Shown here piece after piece: positions 7,740-64,000 of a stretch of 64,000 nt of DNA. The notes under the pieces were generated by a model that was given only the letters and a program-made list of their open reading frames with translations, did no database searches and was not told where the DNA came from. The stretch is from Cladocopium goreaui (Eukaryota; Sar; Dinophyceae; Suessiales; Symbiodiniaceae), in the NCBI GenBank assembly GCA_947184155.2, contig CAMXCT020000262.1, positions 33,501 to 97,500 on the forward strand. The letters are read 5' to 3'. How positions within the stretch are numbered: position 1 is the stretch's first letter; every line of letters begins with the position of its first letter. A program made the position numbers and the translations under genes.

Positions 7740-8735
7740 ACACAAACGCCACGCCTTAGTGGTACAGGAACTTCGCACCTGCTTGTCCCGATCCTGCTAA
7801 AAGTGGTGTGCCTGCAGCTGCAATCCTGGGCTCATCTGTGCCCCTTTTCTGGTTTCTGCGATGGTGGCCTTGTGCAGGCCCTTGGTCTTCAACTTGGTCG
7901 CGCTGATCCTTTGGTCACCTCCTTTGACCTCACGGACTTGGCCGCAGCTGCTGACCTCTTGAGCTTATATGGGTGATGGACAAAAGATATGCGTGCAGCA
8001 CCAGCTTCATTCCTTGCTTGGCACTGTAAGGGGAAAGTCAACATATATATATATATGTAAATATATTGGTATACATGATACATGAAGGTTTCATTCCATT
8101 GTTTTTTTGGAGAATTGATGATCTAAACTATGAGCCTTGTATGCCAATACTGTTCGTTGGGGAGTGTAGTTTATTGCTCTTGACAGATGGAATGATACCA
8201 ACAATCCCCAAGGTTTTTTTGGATCAGAGGAGTTGAAACCACCGAACAGTCTAGTGGAATGAGGTCATAAATTCAAGTTGTTTTTTTTATTTGTTCGGTT
8301 GTTATTTTAAGTAAAGATGCCATTCAGTAGTGTATGATGATATATGATGATTATGTCTGAGGGTGTCTCATCACAGCGGTAGATAGCGCGACAAAGGCAG
8401 CATTCCTTCGGGTCAGAATGCTAGCGGCTAAAGTGGGCAAGTGGATGGTTTCTCCAGTCTGTTGATGTTTTGAGGTATTATCCTCTGTTAAACATCCAAA
8501 AAGTTATGGACAATCACCATCTTTAAGTTCGGTAAATCAACTCTTTTTATGGGCCATTTTCAATGGCTATGTTAAATTATCAGAGGGTAACAAATTCAAA
8601 CCCCTTTGTGATCATTGGAATGGCTGAAAGGGAAGCCTTCAAAAAGACCTTCAAAAAGAATCAAAAAGATAGAACATGATAGAACTTAGAACAGAAATTT
8701 CATGTAAATTCTCAGTTTCTCACCGATTTATACTG
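7740..8735. other. 3-prime flank of the mobile element and AT-rich spacer
   Basis: The first 240 bases after the recombinase stop have the same base composition as the element and may be its 3-prime untranslated end. A TA microsatellite is at 8041-8062. The rest is AT-rich with no convincing ORF or exon. At 8545-8592 there is a half copy of the dispersed CCATAGCTATGTTAAATTA-CAGAGGGT inverted-repeat family. Confidence 0.5.
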
Positions 8736-13861: not shown

Positions 13862-13969
13862 ATAACTGGTTGGTGGTTTCAAACATGTTTTATTTGCCAT
13901 CATATATGGGATAATCCTTTCCATTGACTAATATTTTTCAGAGGGGTAGGTATACCACCAACCAGATAA
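13862..13969. mobile_element. Introner-like MITE, CTGGTTGGTGGT family, with 4-bp target duplication
   Basis: CTGGTTGGTGGT (13866-13877) is perfectly inverted as ACCACCAACCAG (13954-13965). The element is 100 bases and is flanked on both sides by ATAA (13862-13865 and 13966-13969), a plausible target-site duplication. Related copies are at 16611-16730 and 49807-49910, and an exportin intron (61694-61784) has the same kind of ends. Confidence 0.8.
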
Positions 13970-14468: not shown

Positions 14469-17400
14469 GAAGAAAAGGTCGAGGGAATCAATCAAGATGC
14501 AGATGAGCTCATCTGGCGCATGAGCGTCCTGGCTCTGAATGGTGCAGAAAGATCTATCTCACTGTGACGAAAAACTGGAGTGATGGTTAGGATTGGGGTA
14601 AGTCTCCCAAAATGACCTTATTTCAGGTTAGTGAATTATTATAAGTCATCCAGATTTATGATGATTTATGATGGTTTATGAATTTATGGACTGTGGAAAG
14701 TGGCATATCTTAATTCAAATTTGTGATACCCTCAGACGAAGTGTAGAGACTGCAGGTTTAGACGAATGTAACAACGACGGAAGACAGGGAAGCCACGGTT
14801 ATCTTTGGTATTTGTTGGATGTCTTTCGACATGATTATAGATTTAGTTATATCATGTTATATCACCCGTTCTTCCGGTACCTAATTTTGAGCCACAGATG
14901 TGGGTTTATCCAAAGATAGGGTAGTCCCAAAATTGATGATGACTGATGATGGTTCAACCTCATATTCCCCTAAAAGTTGCGATAAAATGGGGGTGCATAT
15001 CCACTATTTTCAGACACGCCCATATACTGTTGATTCTGTGCACCAGGATGATGCTAGGCAATACCCTTCTAAGCGCCAACGCCCAGGCCGGGAGGGCCTG
15101 TCAGTAGCGCAGATCTCAAAAGTCCTTGGATGCGAAGAAGCTGCCGTGGTGCGGTCGCTGGCTCGCATGGGCTTGGTGACGGTGAGGACCGCGGAATGTT
15201 CCCAGCGGGATTCAGTTGCGGCAGTTGCGATGCGGTCGCAAATGGTGGCAGGGATCGGATGGATCTAAACAATTCTAAAATTCTAAACCAATTGGTCGTG
15301 TCCCATGAATGGTAACCATACCACCTATATATTTATGGTGATGACTGGGGGATGGTAAACATGGCATTCTCCCATCAAAAATTCCCTATAAAATCCCATT
15401 GAGACCATTCGAAACAGCCTGGTGACCTGGCGACCGAAGCCTGGTTTATCATGGTTTATTATGGGGAGATCATCCCCAAATGGCCTTAATTTAGGTTAGT
15501 GAAATATTCTATTTTACCCAGATAATCCCAGATATATGATTTATATATGATTAATTATTCATCCTGAAGTAGATAGAATATGGAATGTTCAATAAAAACA
15601 GTAGATAATTATGATATAACTCTGTTTTCGCAGACACTAGCGGGTTTTGTTGCCCAACTCTTGCCCTCCACATGGGATTTCTCAACACTTCCAGGATGTC
15701 AACCAACCAATCACCACCAAAGTCCTATCCCCCGAACCACCAACTCAGGGTTTCCTAATATAAAATGACCCCGTAACCATGGGTATCAATACTAACATGG
15801 TCCAATGACTTGGATGATTGGGAGTACACCTGTTTTAGGAACCCACCACATCATAGTAATTATAATTAATTATAGTCATCTTGAAGTATCATCACTTTGA
15901 ACCAGTTTGAATCAAAAAGATAAGGGTGAGAAAGTGACCCACCCAACCATCAATGATCCTTCGCTCGGTGAAGTCAGGGGGCTGCCGATAGTGGACCCAT
16001 GACTGGCATTTTTGTTAAAAAGATCTTAGGTTATCCACCTGTCAATTGTTCGGGTGTAGCTAGCCATACCTTCTAGCACATGGTTCACGCATTATGCTAA
16101 ACCAGCCATAACATTGATAGGAGATGATAGCAGGAATAATCAGTAGCGGTCTGGCTAACCTCATCTATTGAAATACCAGCAATTCGCGCGGTACAACTTC
16201 TAGTTTGTGTTTCAAAACTCCAGTCGGACCAACTGTGTATCGCAATTCCTTCTTGGAAGGATTGAAACGGCCCATCAATTCATCAAACTAATGTCCACTG
16301 GCGCTGCAGTGGGCACAGGAGATGCAGGATAGCCACAGCTTGAGAAAGGCGGACAATGAGCAAAGATTCATCTCAGAGGCCCCGGCTGTTGGCATGGCTT
16401 GAAGTGTGTCAAGTGTATCCCAAAGATGAGCTATAGCAACACCCGAAAAGGTAGAAAAAGTGAAAGAAGCCTAAAATAGTTGACTTTTCATGACTTTTCA
16501 TGACTTTTTGCAGGGTCACTGGTCAGCTCCAATTTGCAGGTCATTGATGGGATGATCCCAAGAACTGAACATTGCAGAGCTTGTCTTTTCAATTCATCGG
16601 GAAAAACGTACTGGTTGGTGGTTTCAAACATGAATGGATTTTATGTTCCATTTCATTAATATGGGATGTCATCCCAACCCCATTGACGAACTCATATTTT
16701 TCAAGATGGGCACATTGCACCAGCAACCAGAGTAGTCCAACACTCAGATCAATACAATCAAAATCACAGCAATTTGAGCAATTTCCACATCAAATCCCTG
16801 CCGTTGGCTATCGGACAACAGAATGACTGACAATCAGCACATTGATCATATAGAGAAAATTGCCATGTTTCTAAAGATCCCATTTTTGAATATGTTTGAT
16901 GGGACAAATCAAGTAATTTCCCTATCTATTTATATATATATATATATCAGATATCCTATAATATATATATATGTATCCATATATTTGATTCATTTTGACC
17001 GCTTTTTTGGTGCAGGACTTGCTGAAGGATCGCAGAGAGTTGCTTTGTCCTTGCTCTCCTTAGAGTTGATGGAGGATCCGGTCATTGCTGATGGCTACAC
17101 CTATGAGAGGTGGATCTTGTGAAATTGGATGGTTTGATATGGTTTAATCATGTGTAGTCCAACATTGGATGCTGTTATGAATCGTAGAATTTCTACCAAA
17201 TTGGATGGGTTTCAGTCTTATCAAGCCAAATCTGGATGGCTTTCAGTCGTATCCACCCAAATCTGAAAGCTACCCCAATCGCTTCTGGGTCGAGACGATC
17301 TGCAGGTCCTTTATCGAGCGCAGTTTGGATTTAAAGAAGGAGAGTCCAATGACCAAGGAGCAAATCCAAAGTTTGGCACCATGGATGGCAGAAGGCTTTT

Positions 17401-20986: not shown

Positions 20987-52549
<31,563 letters not shown>

Positions 52550-60307: not shown

Positions 60308-63164
60308 ATGTCGAGCACGAGCGGCCTGGAAATTTTCGAGGAGTTGCCCCGAATCCTGGATGACCCACGGCGGCTGACGCAAGCCGCCGAGCTGTTTGAG
60401 CAGCTGAAACGGCCCCCTGGGTTACAAGTTATGAAGGGGTATAGGTTAATAATCTTCATAAGTTGGGGGGGCCTATTTCAAAACGAAGCCTGGACCAACC
60501 ACTACAACCACTTCTTAGTGGAACCGCACCCCCAAGTTGGATGGAAATGTTTAATGGTGCCGATGCTGGTGCGCATGGTGGTTTAAGAATGTTGAATACT
60601 TACGCTGTCATAGTTATTAATAGTTCAAAATTAGCCTATTGGCTGATTGGAATCATAGATCCTATTGGTCGTTTCCAATGGGGCTTGGAAGTTGAAAGGG
60701 GTGAGAGACAAGGTGAACAACGGTGAACTAATGCTGTCTAATATGGCTTGAATGGGCCTTGCAGTGGGAGTGAAAATGGCTGGATTTAGAATTAGAGCTG
60801 CATTAAAAGCTGCATGAAAAGCATGGATGGAGATAGGGTAGCCAAGCCGGATATGGATGATATATATATATATACACATACATACATACACATACACATT
60901 TATTTTTACATGCGAACTCCCAAAAGCTTCCCGAACAAAGATCAAAGAACCCGTTTTATTATATATATAGTTATATATATATATATTATAGTTATATATA
61001 TATATATTATAGTTATATATATATATACAGTTATATATATAATATAATATCTATATATAATATATTATATATATATTATATAATATATATATGTATATTA
61101 TATAATATATAATATATATATATAATATAATATATATATATATTATATAATATATAATATATATATTATATATATATTATATTATATATTATATATATAG
61201 ATATTATAATATAATATATATATATAATATATGTATAAAATTCTGACCTTGGGGGTCCTAATTCCTACCGTACCTGGGGTTGATCCAAGAGGTTCAGCCG
61301 GGATTGTTTCACGCCTGTCGGATACCACCTTTGGCCAGTGATTCATTTCTTACGGTTCTACCACCTTTGTGCCACTGATAAAGATGGATAAAGAGAGTCT
61401 ATTGACATCTATGGATTGGGGAATTGGTGGATTCTTGGTCCTCCTTCCTCTTTTCTTACATAGCCACAAGCAGAGTCTCCAAGACGCATGGCTAAGAGGT
61501 AACTTGCTTGTTTTGTCCTCTGCGCTTCAGACTTGGTTTCCAGGTTGTGTCGGGAGTCAGCAGCTGCCCTCCAACATGTGATGAGATTCGCCACTGCTGA
61601 GCAGCCAGCTGTGCAACACTTTGCCTTGAAATTATTGCTTAGCTGGGTTCAACCAAGAGCCCGCCATGAATTTCCTTCGGAATGGCTGGCCCTGAGACTG
61701 GTTGGTGGTTTCATTCATCTTTGTGTTTCCCCCTAGAAATGGGATGATTGCCAAATGACTTTCATTGTGTGGCTCCTCAACCAGGAAAACTTGGTTGCTC
61801 CAAAGCATGCAAAAAGATTGGTCCTCAGCTCCCGTCTTTGTTCGCGGCAAGTTGGCCGATGTCATCGTCAACGTGGCCAAAGTGGAATGGCCCGGCGCAT
61901 GGCCGGAACTCAGCAGTGCACTGTTTGGGGAGCAAACTTTAAGTTCAACCTTGTTGCTGGTTGGGGAATTCATTTTTGCTATTTTGCATACTATCTGCGA
62001 TGATATCAACAAATATCAACGAATCAAATATCAGATATGGTTCAAATCGATGATAGTCCCAATTGCCTACTTACTACTTATCGTATCTTGTTGTATAATT
62101 TATGATACTATGATTAATATTGATTAATAATATGACACACTTAATGATCAATACTTTTTCAACTGGTGGCTGAACCCCCAGGTTGAAGCTGAGCATTTGG
62201 ACTCGCTTTTGTGAATGCTTGGGCGAAGATGCCAAAGATCTCACTGCTGAAAGGCGAAGGGAGATTTCGCAGGGCATTGGAAAGCATTTCGAAGAACCCC
62301 CTGAGGCACCCTGGAGCTGGCGGAGTTGGGAAGAAGTTGAATTGGCCTACAGAATCTACAGGAAAGCATGTAATTTGTGCCTCTAAACATAGTTTTTTTG
62401 GGTATCAGCTCACCATTTCACAAGCAACAATTCTGGGAGAAGTGGGTTTTGGCCCGCACGTGGGCCGGTATATTTTGTTGAAGAAACGCCAAGGGCGGAT
62501 CACACACCAAACATAGGGTACCATGTGACATTGGATTCCGGTGTGAATTGGTTTGTGGCGGCTTGTGGTTCTAATGTTTCACTTTGCATCTGGGCAAGCA
62601 TCCCAGTTGACTTGCGTTTTTGTCCTGTTAACAAAGCGAGAAACCAGATACAGTTGATAAACTTCACTCATCCGAAAGGGTCGGAATTTAATCTACTCCA
62701 GTTGATGTGGGAAAAAGATGCGCCAGCCCTGTGTCGTCTTCCCAGCTAAACAGACTGAGGCGCCTATCTTTGTTGCAAGTTTGCAGCAATCCCTGCAACA
62801 CTTCGGAGCAGATGGGAGAGTGCTCAGTAGCTTGTTCCACTTGGACATTATTTTTTCTGATTTGGTCTGTGGTTTATACGCTTGTTTCCTCTCATTTTTC
62901 ATGAATAACTTGGGATAAGTCTCCCAGTCATTGAGTTGACAGCTCTTTTTTATTTTTCATAACAAAGGGAAACATATGATACTATGATTTCATTGTACAT
63001 ATATCTATGTAAATCCATAGATATTGGTTAAAACATGCTAAAACCAACAGGATGAACCTCCAAATCGCAAATCGTCAGGGGAGGTCCTGCAGCTCTGCCG
63101 AGCCTTACCCAATGCAGTGACGGTGAAGCTCTTGCTGAAGAACCACTTCGACAAGATTGTGAAG
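60308..63164 (+). CDS. Exportin-family karyopherin, N-terminal exons (partial)
   Basis: Exons: 60308-60420, 61544-61693, 61785-61931, 62182-62365, 62760-62807 and 63051-63164, continuing beyond the window. All joins keep phase; donors are GT, GA, GC, GC, GC and GT, each acceptor AG then G. The start MSSTSGLEIFEELPRILD is at 60308, although the frame is open to an ATG at 60227. The segment AEQPAVQHFALKLLLSWV, then FVRGKLADVIVNVAKVEWPG and AWPELSSALF, is the importin-beta/Xpo1-like signature (a conserved Lys-Leu and the WP-x-x-WP pair). FCECLGEDAKDLTAERRREI continues the HEAT-repeat pattern. Such proteins export cargo such as small RNAs from the nucleus with Ran-GTP. The exact member (XPO5/HASTY-like seems closest) is not certain from the N-terminus alone. 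Confidence 0.85.
60858..61240. repeat. Long AT microsatellite in the first exportin intron
   Basis: About 380 bases, mostly (TA)n with GTTATATATA, TATTATATAA and CATACATACA variants. It lies in the intron 60421-61543. Confidence 0.95.
61694..61784. mobile_element. Exportin intron 2 is itself an introner-like element
   Basis: The whole 91-bp intron starts GA-GACTGGTTGGTGGTTTC and ends CTCAACCAG, the same inverted ends as the free elements at 13866, 16611 and 49807. The donor is GA and the acceptor AG then G. The exon joins ...WLAL-KTWLLQ in phase once it is removed. Confidence 0.7.
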
Positions 63165-63422: not shown

Positions 63423-63860
63423 GCGAAAAAATGATTTTTTAGAGCCTGAAAAATTGGTTTTTGCAAAGCCGAGCTTCTCTGAGTTTCATCAGAGCAGTGT
63501 GAAAAAAGCAATTTTTTAGAGCCTGAAAAGTTGTTTTTTTGCAAAGCCATGCTTGTATGATTTTTTTGAGGTTAGTGCGCAAAAACATTTTTTGGAGCCT
63601 GATTTTTTTTGCAAAGCCGAGCTTCTCTGAGTTTCATCAGAGCAGTGTGAAAACACACAATTTTTTAGAGCCTGAAAAGTTGTTTTTTTTTGCAAAGCCA
63701 TGCTTGTATGATTTTTATGAGGTTAGCGCGCAAAAAGAAAAAATGGAGCCTTTTTTTTGGCAAAGCCGAGCTTCTCTGAGTTTCATGAGAGCAGTGTGGA
63801 AAAGACGATTTTTTAGAGCCTGAAAAGTTGTTTTTCTGCAGAGCCCTGTTTGTGGCCAAC
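63423..63860. repeat. Tandem repeat with alternating GCAAAGCCGAGC / GCAAAGCCATGC units
   Basis: Units of about 65-75 bases alternate: GCAAAGCCGAGCTTCTCTGAGTTTCATCAGAGCAGTGTGAAAA then ATTTTTTAGAGCCTGAAAAGTTG, and GCAAAGCCATGCTTGTATGATTTTT-GAGGTTAG-GCGCAAAAA. The composite unit recurs about three times with small indels. Confidence 0.9.
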
Positions 63861-63921: not shown

Positions 63922-64000
63922 GCCTGCCTAGCTCAGTCGGCAGCGCGGTTGGCTTAGGCGTCCAGGTTGCGGTCCGGGTCGCGGGCTCGATTCCCGGCGC
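63922..64000 (+). tRNA. tRNA-like sequence, truncated by the window end
   Basis: It has an A-box (TAGCTCAGTCGG), a plausible anticodon loop CTTAGGCG (AGG, proline-like, if the loop is TTAGGCG) and a B-box (GGCTCGATTCC). By 79 bases the acceptor end has not been reached, longer than a normal class-I tRNA, and the anticodon stem pairs poorly. It may therefore be the tRNA-derived head of a SINE rather than a functional tRNA. The 3-prime end is outside the window. Confidence 0.55.

Follow-up and report, generated by a model that had tools for sequence, protein, structure and literature searches.

The 91-bp segment at positions 61694-61784 of the analysed stretch of Cladocopium goreaui DNA, a 64-kb window (C262:33501-97500), is probably an intron that arose from the insertion of a MITE, the splice sites being shared by the duplicated target (TSD) and the terminal inverted repeat (TIR); the upstream exon and the splicing are predicted. 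The sampled copies of the corresponding MITE family, family 1, hold one orientation over at least 50 kb, mostly that of the coding strand. The features of the window that belong to the predicted intron and to family 1 are the following:

61542-61693, + strand: putative upstream exon part with the frame ...VQHFALKLLLSWVQPRARHEFPSEWLAL, without a domain match of its own
61694-61784, + strand: predicted spliceosomal intron GA...AG/G, 91 bp, made up of the 87-bp element and a 4-bp TSD copy
61694-61697, + strand: left TSD copy GAGA, bearing the GA donor
61698-61784, + strand: diverged family 1 copy of 87 bp (the intron copy), characterised by HMM matches and alignment divergence
61785-61788, + strand: right TSD copy GAAA, 3/4 identical to the left copy
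61785-61940, + strand: downstream exon part, ...KTWLLQSMQKDWSSAPVFVRGKLADVIVNVAKVEWPGAWPELSSALFGEQ, with a weak Xpo1 (PF08389) match
13866-13965, + strand: family 1 copy, apparently non-coding, with the perfect TSD ATAA/ATAA
16611-16730, + strand: family 1 copy, apparently non-coding, with the TSD CGTA/AGTA
49807-49910, + strand: family 1 copy, apparently non-coding, with the TSD TCAT/TCAG

The excisions with the first base at 61684-61709 and the last base at 61770-61794 were tested for an AG end, a kept frame and a GT, GC or GA start. Two excisions qualified: 61694-61784 (GA...AG/G) and one with a GC start at 61685. The former removes just the element and one TSD copy, and the GC start at 61685 costs three exon codons. 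Without splicing, the upstream frame extends over 77 open codons and then runs into a stop within the element, and the excision of 61694-61784 re-joins the flanking frame in phase. The predicted donor GA is located in the TSD and the acceptor CAG in the TIR. For this one predicted intron, the coincidence with an element, the origin of the splice sites from the element and the TSD, and the length of the element plus 4 bp with restoration of the frame are those of an introner, as judged from the reading frames. Only one of the 59 aligned copies was more diverged than the intron copy, the mismatch of which, 33% compared to the family median of 12%, indicates that the insertion is old. A tblastn search of the genome with the joined exons, conducted for an intronless paralog, matched only the exons themselves.

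The formation of the intron can be described by the following mechanism. A non-autonomous MITE (CTGGTTGGTGGT...ACCACCAACCAG), the transposition of which would be carried out by a transposase, would have inserted at a GAGA site within an exon, duplicating the 4-bp target. The TIR ending in CAG would provide the 3' splice site and the duplicated target the GA 5' splice site, and the removal of the element with one TSD copy would return the original frame. The initial annotation had regarded the segment as an introner of a family that occurs in both free and spliced form. This reading was sustained with respect to the element plus one TSD copy, the GA-AG excision that restores the frame and the presence of thousands of copies in the genome, but it could not be extended to an introner status of the whole family.

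The host gene had been named an exportin, an identity that is weakly suggested by the sequence matches. The Pfam match to Xpo1 (PF08389) resulted in E=0.0025 and 18.4 bits, under the cut-off of 22.7, and concerned the downstream exon only. The PDB match to Exportin-1 had an E value of ~0.6-1, and an unrelated protein scored better. The joined exons had no match in NCBIfam, and the Pfam matches of ten long ORFs of the window were all under the curated cut-offs. The weak domain match, together with a splicing that is predicted from the sequence, would also suit a pseudogene broken by the insertion, in which the segment 61694-61784 stays unspliced. This is an unlikely explanation, as the copy is old (33% diverged) and yet the flanking frames are still open and in phase; an intron made by the MITE insertion is the preferred reading.

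The predicted coding segments of the window were on the + strand as far as 19.3 kb, on the - strand with few exceptions over 20.9-46.3 kb, and on the + strand at 48 kb, while those on the - strand recurred at 55.8 kb and across the downstream exon. All four family 1 copies of the window fell outside the mostly-minus stretch of 20.9-46.3 kb. The GC content of the window was 43.9%, and the Rfam scan of the window gave 0 matches. Direct repeats with a period of ~150 bp and TTTTTTAGAGCCTGAAAAGTTG units were observed at 63458-63853. The segment at 63922-64000 was tRNA-like by eye and uncalled by ARAGORN, perhaps on account of an interruption or of truncation at the window end. Downstream of the gene, locus L048 (C262:97501-107500) contained ~5 kb of N, which may be an assembly gap or a withheld stretch.

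The four family 1 copies named in the initial annotation were all found in their places; they align end to end, every one on the + strand. The motif CTGGTTGGTGG (<=1 mismatch) occurred 8 times in the window compared to 1.57 expected occurrences, and 0/100 shuffles reached 8. The HMM built from the three other window copies matched the intron copy with E=1.6e-7, the alignment covering positions 1-93 of the 100-position model, so the intron copy resembles the family beyond its ends. With the HMM of 55 genome copies, from which the window copies were excluded, the E values of the four window copies were 1.6e-23, 3.8e-12, 9.4e-12 and 3.4e-7, the last one belonging to the intron copy (aligned over 61698-61766). 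The family membership of the intron copy, its ends, its TSD and the joining of the frame are regarded as shown. When 20 random sequences with the dinucleotide frequencies of the window were scanned, the HMM of the 55 genome copies had no match at E<=100. The weak matches of this HMM in the window at 26062-26120 (E=0.006) and 8170-8248 (E=0.009) are perhaps decayed copies.

The genome search was performed with the 1.166-Gb assembly of 6,202 contigs. The contig C1 (G000) of this assembly, at least 7.28 Mb long, matched protein kinase domains dozens of times in its long open frames; it looks bacterial and would originate from a companion bacterium or a contaminant. The family 1 pattern CTGGTTGGTGG-N(50-80)-CCAACCAG resulted in 4382 forward and 4370 reverse matches genome-wide, and the reversed pattern, used as a control, in 0. 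As the pattern is near-palindromic, most elements were matched on both strands, and the 100 matches listed corresponded to 55 distinct elements. These counts give a minimum of 4,382 copies whose ends are exact, and they suggest ~4,800 elements overall. All the 55 listed elements were taken with 2-kb flanks; they lie on the first-numbered contigs and do not represent a random choice.

Family 1 has the TIR CTGGTTGGTGGT ... ACCACCAACCAG and an HMM consensus of 98 bp. The TSD length was exactly 4 bp, with perfect duplications in 35/55 elements and a 3-of-4 match in 9/55. The left and right flank bases agreed in 43-47/55 elements at offset 4, compared to 2-30/55 at the remaining offsets and positions. 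The target flanks were near-palindromic by eye, A-rich before and T-rich after the element. The median mismatch to the consensus was 12% among the 59 aligned copies, some of which differed by only 3-5%. The fetched loci and the window were also scanned for elements of the form CTG...CAG that had a 12-bp TIR (<=1 mismatch) and a perfect TSD of 4-8 bp; of the 51 elements obtained, 48 belonged to family 1 and 3 to a second family, the TSD of which is 6 bp long. Family 1 is thus short, has TIRs and a TSD of fixed length and is present in a high copy number, which are the properties of a MITE family. The element had 0 exact matches in the IMG/VR and GTDB contigs.

The ability of family 1 to make introns in general was evaluated with 104 merged copies (nhmmer E<=0.01; 4 under 30 bits; the overlapping locus L057 left out), and 95 of the 104, those with 250 bp on each side, were scored for coding potential around the exact excision. 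At least 5 bits on both sides were detected with 2/95 copies, the intron copy (8.7 and 6.7 on its two sides) and L049:8443-8543 (19.6 and 5.2), compared to 10/519 random positions. A summed score of >=14 was determined for 5/95 copies and 38/519 random positions. Since random positions pass at the same rate, the coding score neither marks family 1 as intron-making nor proves the intron. Candidates for introns made by family 1 among the 95 copies were the window intron and the doubtful case of L049:8443-8543, a rate equal to that of random positions. The fact that the two-sided support of the intron copy is no better than that of some random positions, and the confinement of the Xpo1 match to the downstream exon, would also be in accordance with an upstream frame that is not an exon; the copy would then end a longer intron and give at most its 3' splice site. 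To this reading a low probability is assigned, somewhat above that of the pseudogene, as the upstream frame stays open for 77 codons and joins in phase upon the exact removal of the element and the TSD. The intron that consists of the element and one TSD copy is therefore retained as the preferred reading.

The first TSD base in sense was A in 22, T in 16, C in 7 and G in 2 of the 47 copies with a perfect TSD, 83 copies having recognisable ends. With only 2/47 TSDs starting with G, the TSD of most of these copies could not serve as a GT, GC or GA donor. In the case of L049:8443-8543, which has a perfect CTTA TSD, an open frame runs through the copy, 105 bp in phase; the copy may have been exonised or may form a second intron, or the open frame may be due to chance. 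Coding segments within 50 bp started downstream at 5 copies (2.6 expected) and ended upstream at 2 (2.4 expected); within 100 bp, the corresponding numbers were 8 (4.1 expected) and 9 (4.8 expected). The family 1 copies were somewhat closer to coding segments than random positions on both sides. A role of the copies as acceptors of downstream exons was also considered, and it was not seen. Overall, family 1 looks like a MITE that is able to make an intron, the copies of which are mostly not introns.

All the loci with at least two family 1 copies were single-stranded (31/31, 48 adjacent pairs), and the same was determined without the copies under 30 bits (29/29, 45 adjacent pairs). The set was enlarged with the 100 listed places of an internal asymmetric motif of family 1, which has 929 forward and 837 reverse matches genome-wide; after leaving out the copies under 30 bits, it comprised 198 copies on 72 contigs. 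In this set, neighbours were on the same strand in 21/21 pairs at distances below 1 kb, 31/31 at 1-10 kb and 37/37 at 10-50 kb, resulting in an agreement of 89/89 pairs below 50 kb. At longer distances, the agreement was 17/18 at 50-100 kb, 8/9 at 100-200 kb and 6/10 above 200 kb.

The coding strand was determined with a crude codon model that was self-trained on the same loci and did not use the element strand. Among 57 loci, including the overlapping L057, it was the same as the element strand in 44, opposite in 9 and without a call in 4. When the window and L057 were left out, 125 coding segments remained, 89 on the element strand and 36 against it. The larger summed coding score was on the element strand in 19/20 contigs, C21 being the exception and C3 and C5 close calls. 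The strand of protein kinase exons equalled the element strand on 3/3 contigs common to both listings, at distances of 53-68 kb. On the element strand, the flanks had more G than C in 43/55 loci and more T than A in 41/55. Among the best 100 of 170 sense ORFs, Pfam matches to four families were obtained with one ORF each, too few for a test; the best 100 of 170 antisense ORFs matched no Pfam family.

Other repeat families in the same loci were oriented relative to the family 1 element strand. A second MITE family, with the TIR CTGGGTAAATTATAA, CTGG...CCAG ends, a 6-bp TSD and an internal TTCAG/GTTAGTG, agreed with the family 1 strand in 19:0 cases, and a re-extraction with other settings resulted in 15 members, all sense. 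The copies of this family include:

14622-14667 of the window, + strand: partial copy
15434-15523 of the window, + strand: partial copy
L013:1024-1138, L014:2329-2448 and L037:3498-3618: copies in the fetched loci

The internal TTCAG/GTTAGTG reads as a 3' splice site directly followed by a 5' splice site. A 3' splice site abutting a 5' splice site is the form of recursive splice sites.

Three MITE-like families were mixed in orientation, 5:9, 4:4 and 3:3, and 4:8, 4:2 and 4:3 after re-extraction. Being palindromic, the largest repeat family, of 105 stretches, is uninformative on orientation. The small families of three or four members had the ratios 0:4, 0:3, 3:0, 2:1, 2:1 and 1:2, with pairs both ways. 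As mixed controls occur in the same loci, the lock seems to belong to certain families rather than to the loci, though the control families are small.

From these data we infer that either the elements insert directionally or their antisense copies are eliminated with very high efficiency, and the two are about equally likely. In the case of directional insertion, which is a realistic explanation although it falls short of being probable, the machinery would set one orientation relative to the movement of the fork or polymerase. It is favoured by the fact that none of the 89 pairs of neighbours less than 50 kb apart is discordant, with little-diverged copies (3-5%) being among those sampled, and by the second family, which is locked likewise with a 6-bp TSD. 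However, the flank preference is near-palindromic by eye, so the target does not obviously set the orientation. In bacteria, the insertion of Tn7 with TnsE is oriented relative to fork or polymerase movement.

Selection deserves the same degree of credence: the insertion would be random, and the antisense copies would be purged for harming pre-mRNA processing, while the sense copies are tolerated. The sense copies bear a branch-point-like and acceptor-like stretch, GACTAATATTTTTCAG, and the element strand is mostly the coding strand. In addition, both locked families have CTG at the start and CAG at the end, with a further CAG inside the element on the sense strand, whereas the three mixed families are without CTG...CAG TIRs (alignments judged by eye). 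These observations point to selection, but it requires near-lethal antisense copies even between genes, and owing to the TIR the antisense strand likewise ends in CAG.

A more specific proposal, made tentatively and with more doubt than confidence, is that family 1 (CTGGTTGGTGG, 4-bp TSD) and the second family (CTGGGTAAATTATAA, 6-bp TSD) insert one way only, as set by the direction of gene-block transcription or replication. If this is true, dinoflagellate DNA transposition is directional, exonic insertions land in the spliceable direction and each copy is a strand marker of its chromosomal domain. The strand lock itself, if new, would give a reason why some MITEs become introners, being already in the spliceable direction, and would make the gene-block direction readable from repeats. 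It also allows directional insertion to be distinguished from splicing-based selection by testing. In the literature on introners and dinoflagellate gene blocks, the portions covered do not discuss how non-coding copies of introners or MITEs are oriented relative to the gene blocks; these portions are partial and do not establish that the lock is unreported.

MITEs are in general short elements with TIRs, a fixed TSD and a high copy number. They are not known to keep a single orientation. Family 1 shares the build of MITEs in general and is locked, whereas the three MITE-like families of the same loci are mixed. Dinoflagellate genes are arranged in unidirectional blocks, and transposable-element genes against the block direction were without expression evidence, according to the excerpts of the respective papers (PMC8110479 and PMC9412976 for the blocks; PMC9412976 for the transposable-element genes).

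GC-AG and GA-AG introns are common in Symbiodiniaceae, as described in an excerpt of PMC11453091. In Polarella and other dinoflagellates, introns were made in numbers by introner insertion (Roy et al. 2023, as quoted in the excerpt of PMC11453091), and the creation of a dinoflagellate intron by introner insertion is what the window intron would have in common with them. The introner elements of Amoebophrya have inverted repeats at the intron ends and direct repeats of 3-5 nt at the exon borders (Farhat et al. 2021, PMC7789003, in the sections available). Intron-end inverted repeats and short direct repeats at the exon borders are features common to both systems; Amoebophrya differs in its mostly non-canonical splice motifs, and a family-specific IR motif was not detected there, according to the same sections of PMC7789003.

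The introners of Symbiodinium microadriaticum have 4-bp TSDs, TIRs and their own 3' splice site, the 5' site being provided by the TSD (Gozashti et al. 2022, PMC9860276, in the excerpted text). The 4-bp TSD, the TIRs, the element 3' splice site and the TSD 5' splice site are common to family 1 of the S. microadriaticum introners and the elements studied here. The elements studied here differ in that introns can be made up by few of the sampled copies. They are also strand-locked, and the excerpt does not discuss the orientation of S. microadriaticum copies outside introns. By analogy, the predicted window intron would work as an S. microadriaticum introner, the architecture of which has already been published (PMC9860276), and it would represent one more case of intron gain from a DNA transposon, with the source family at hand.
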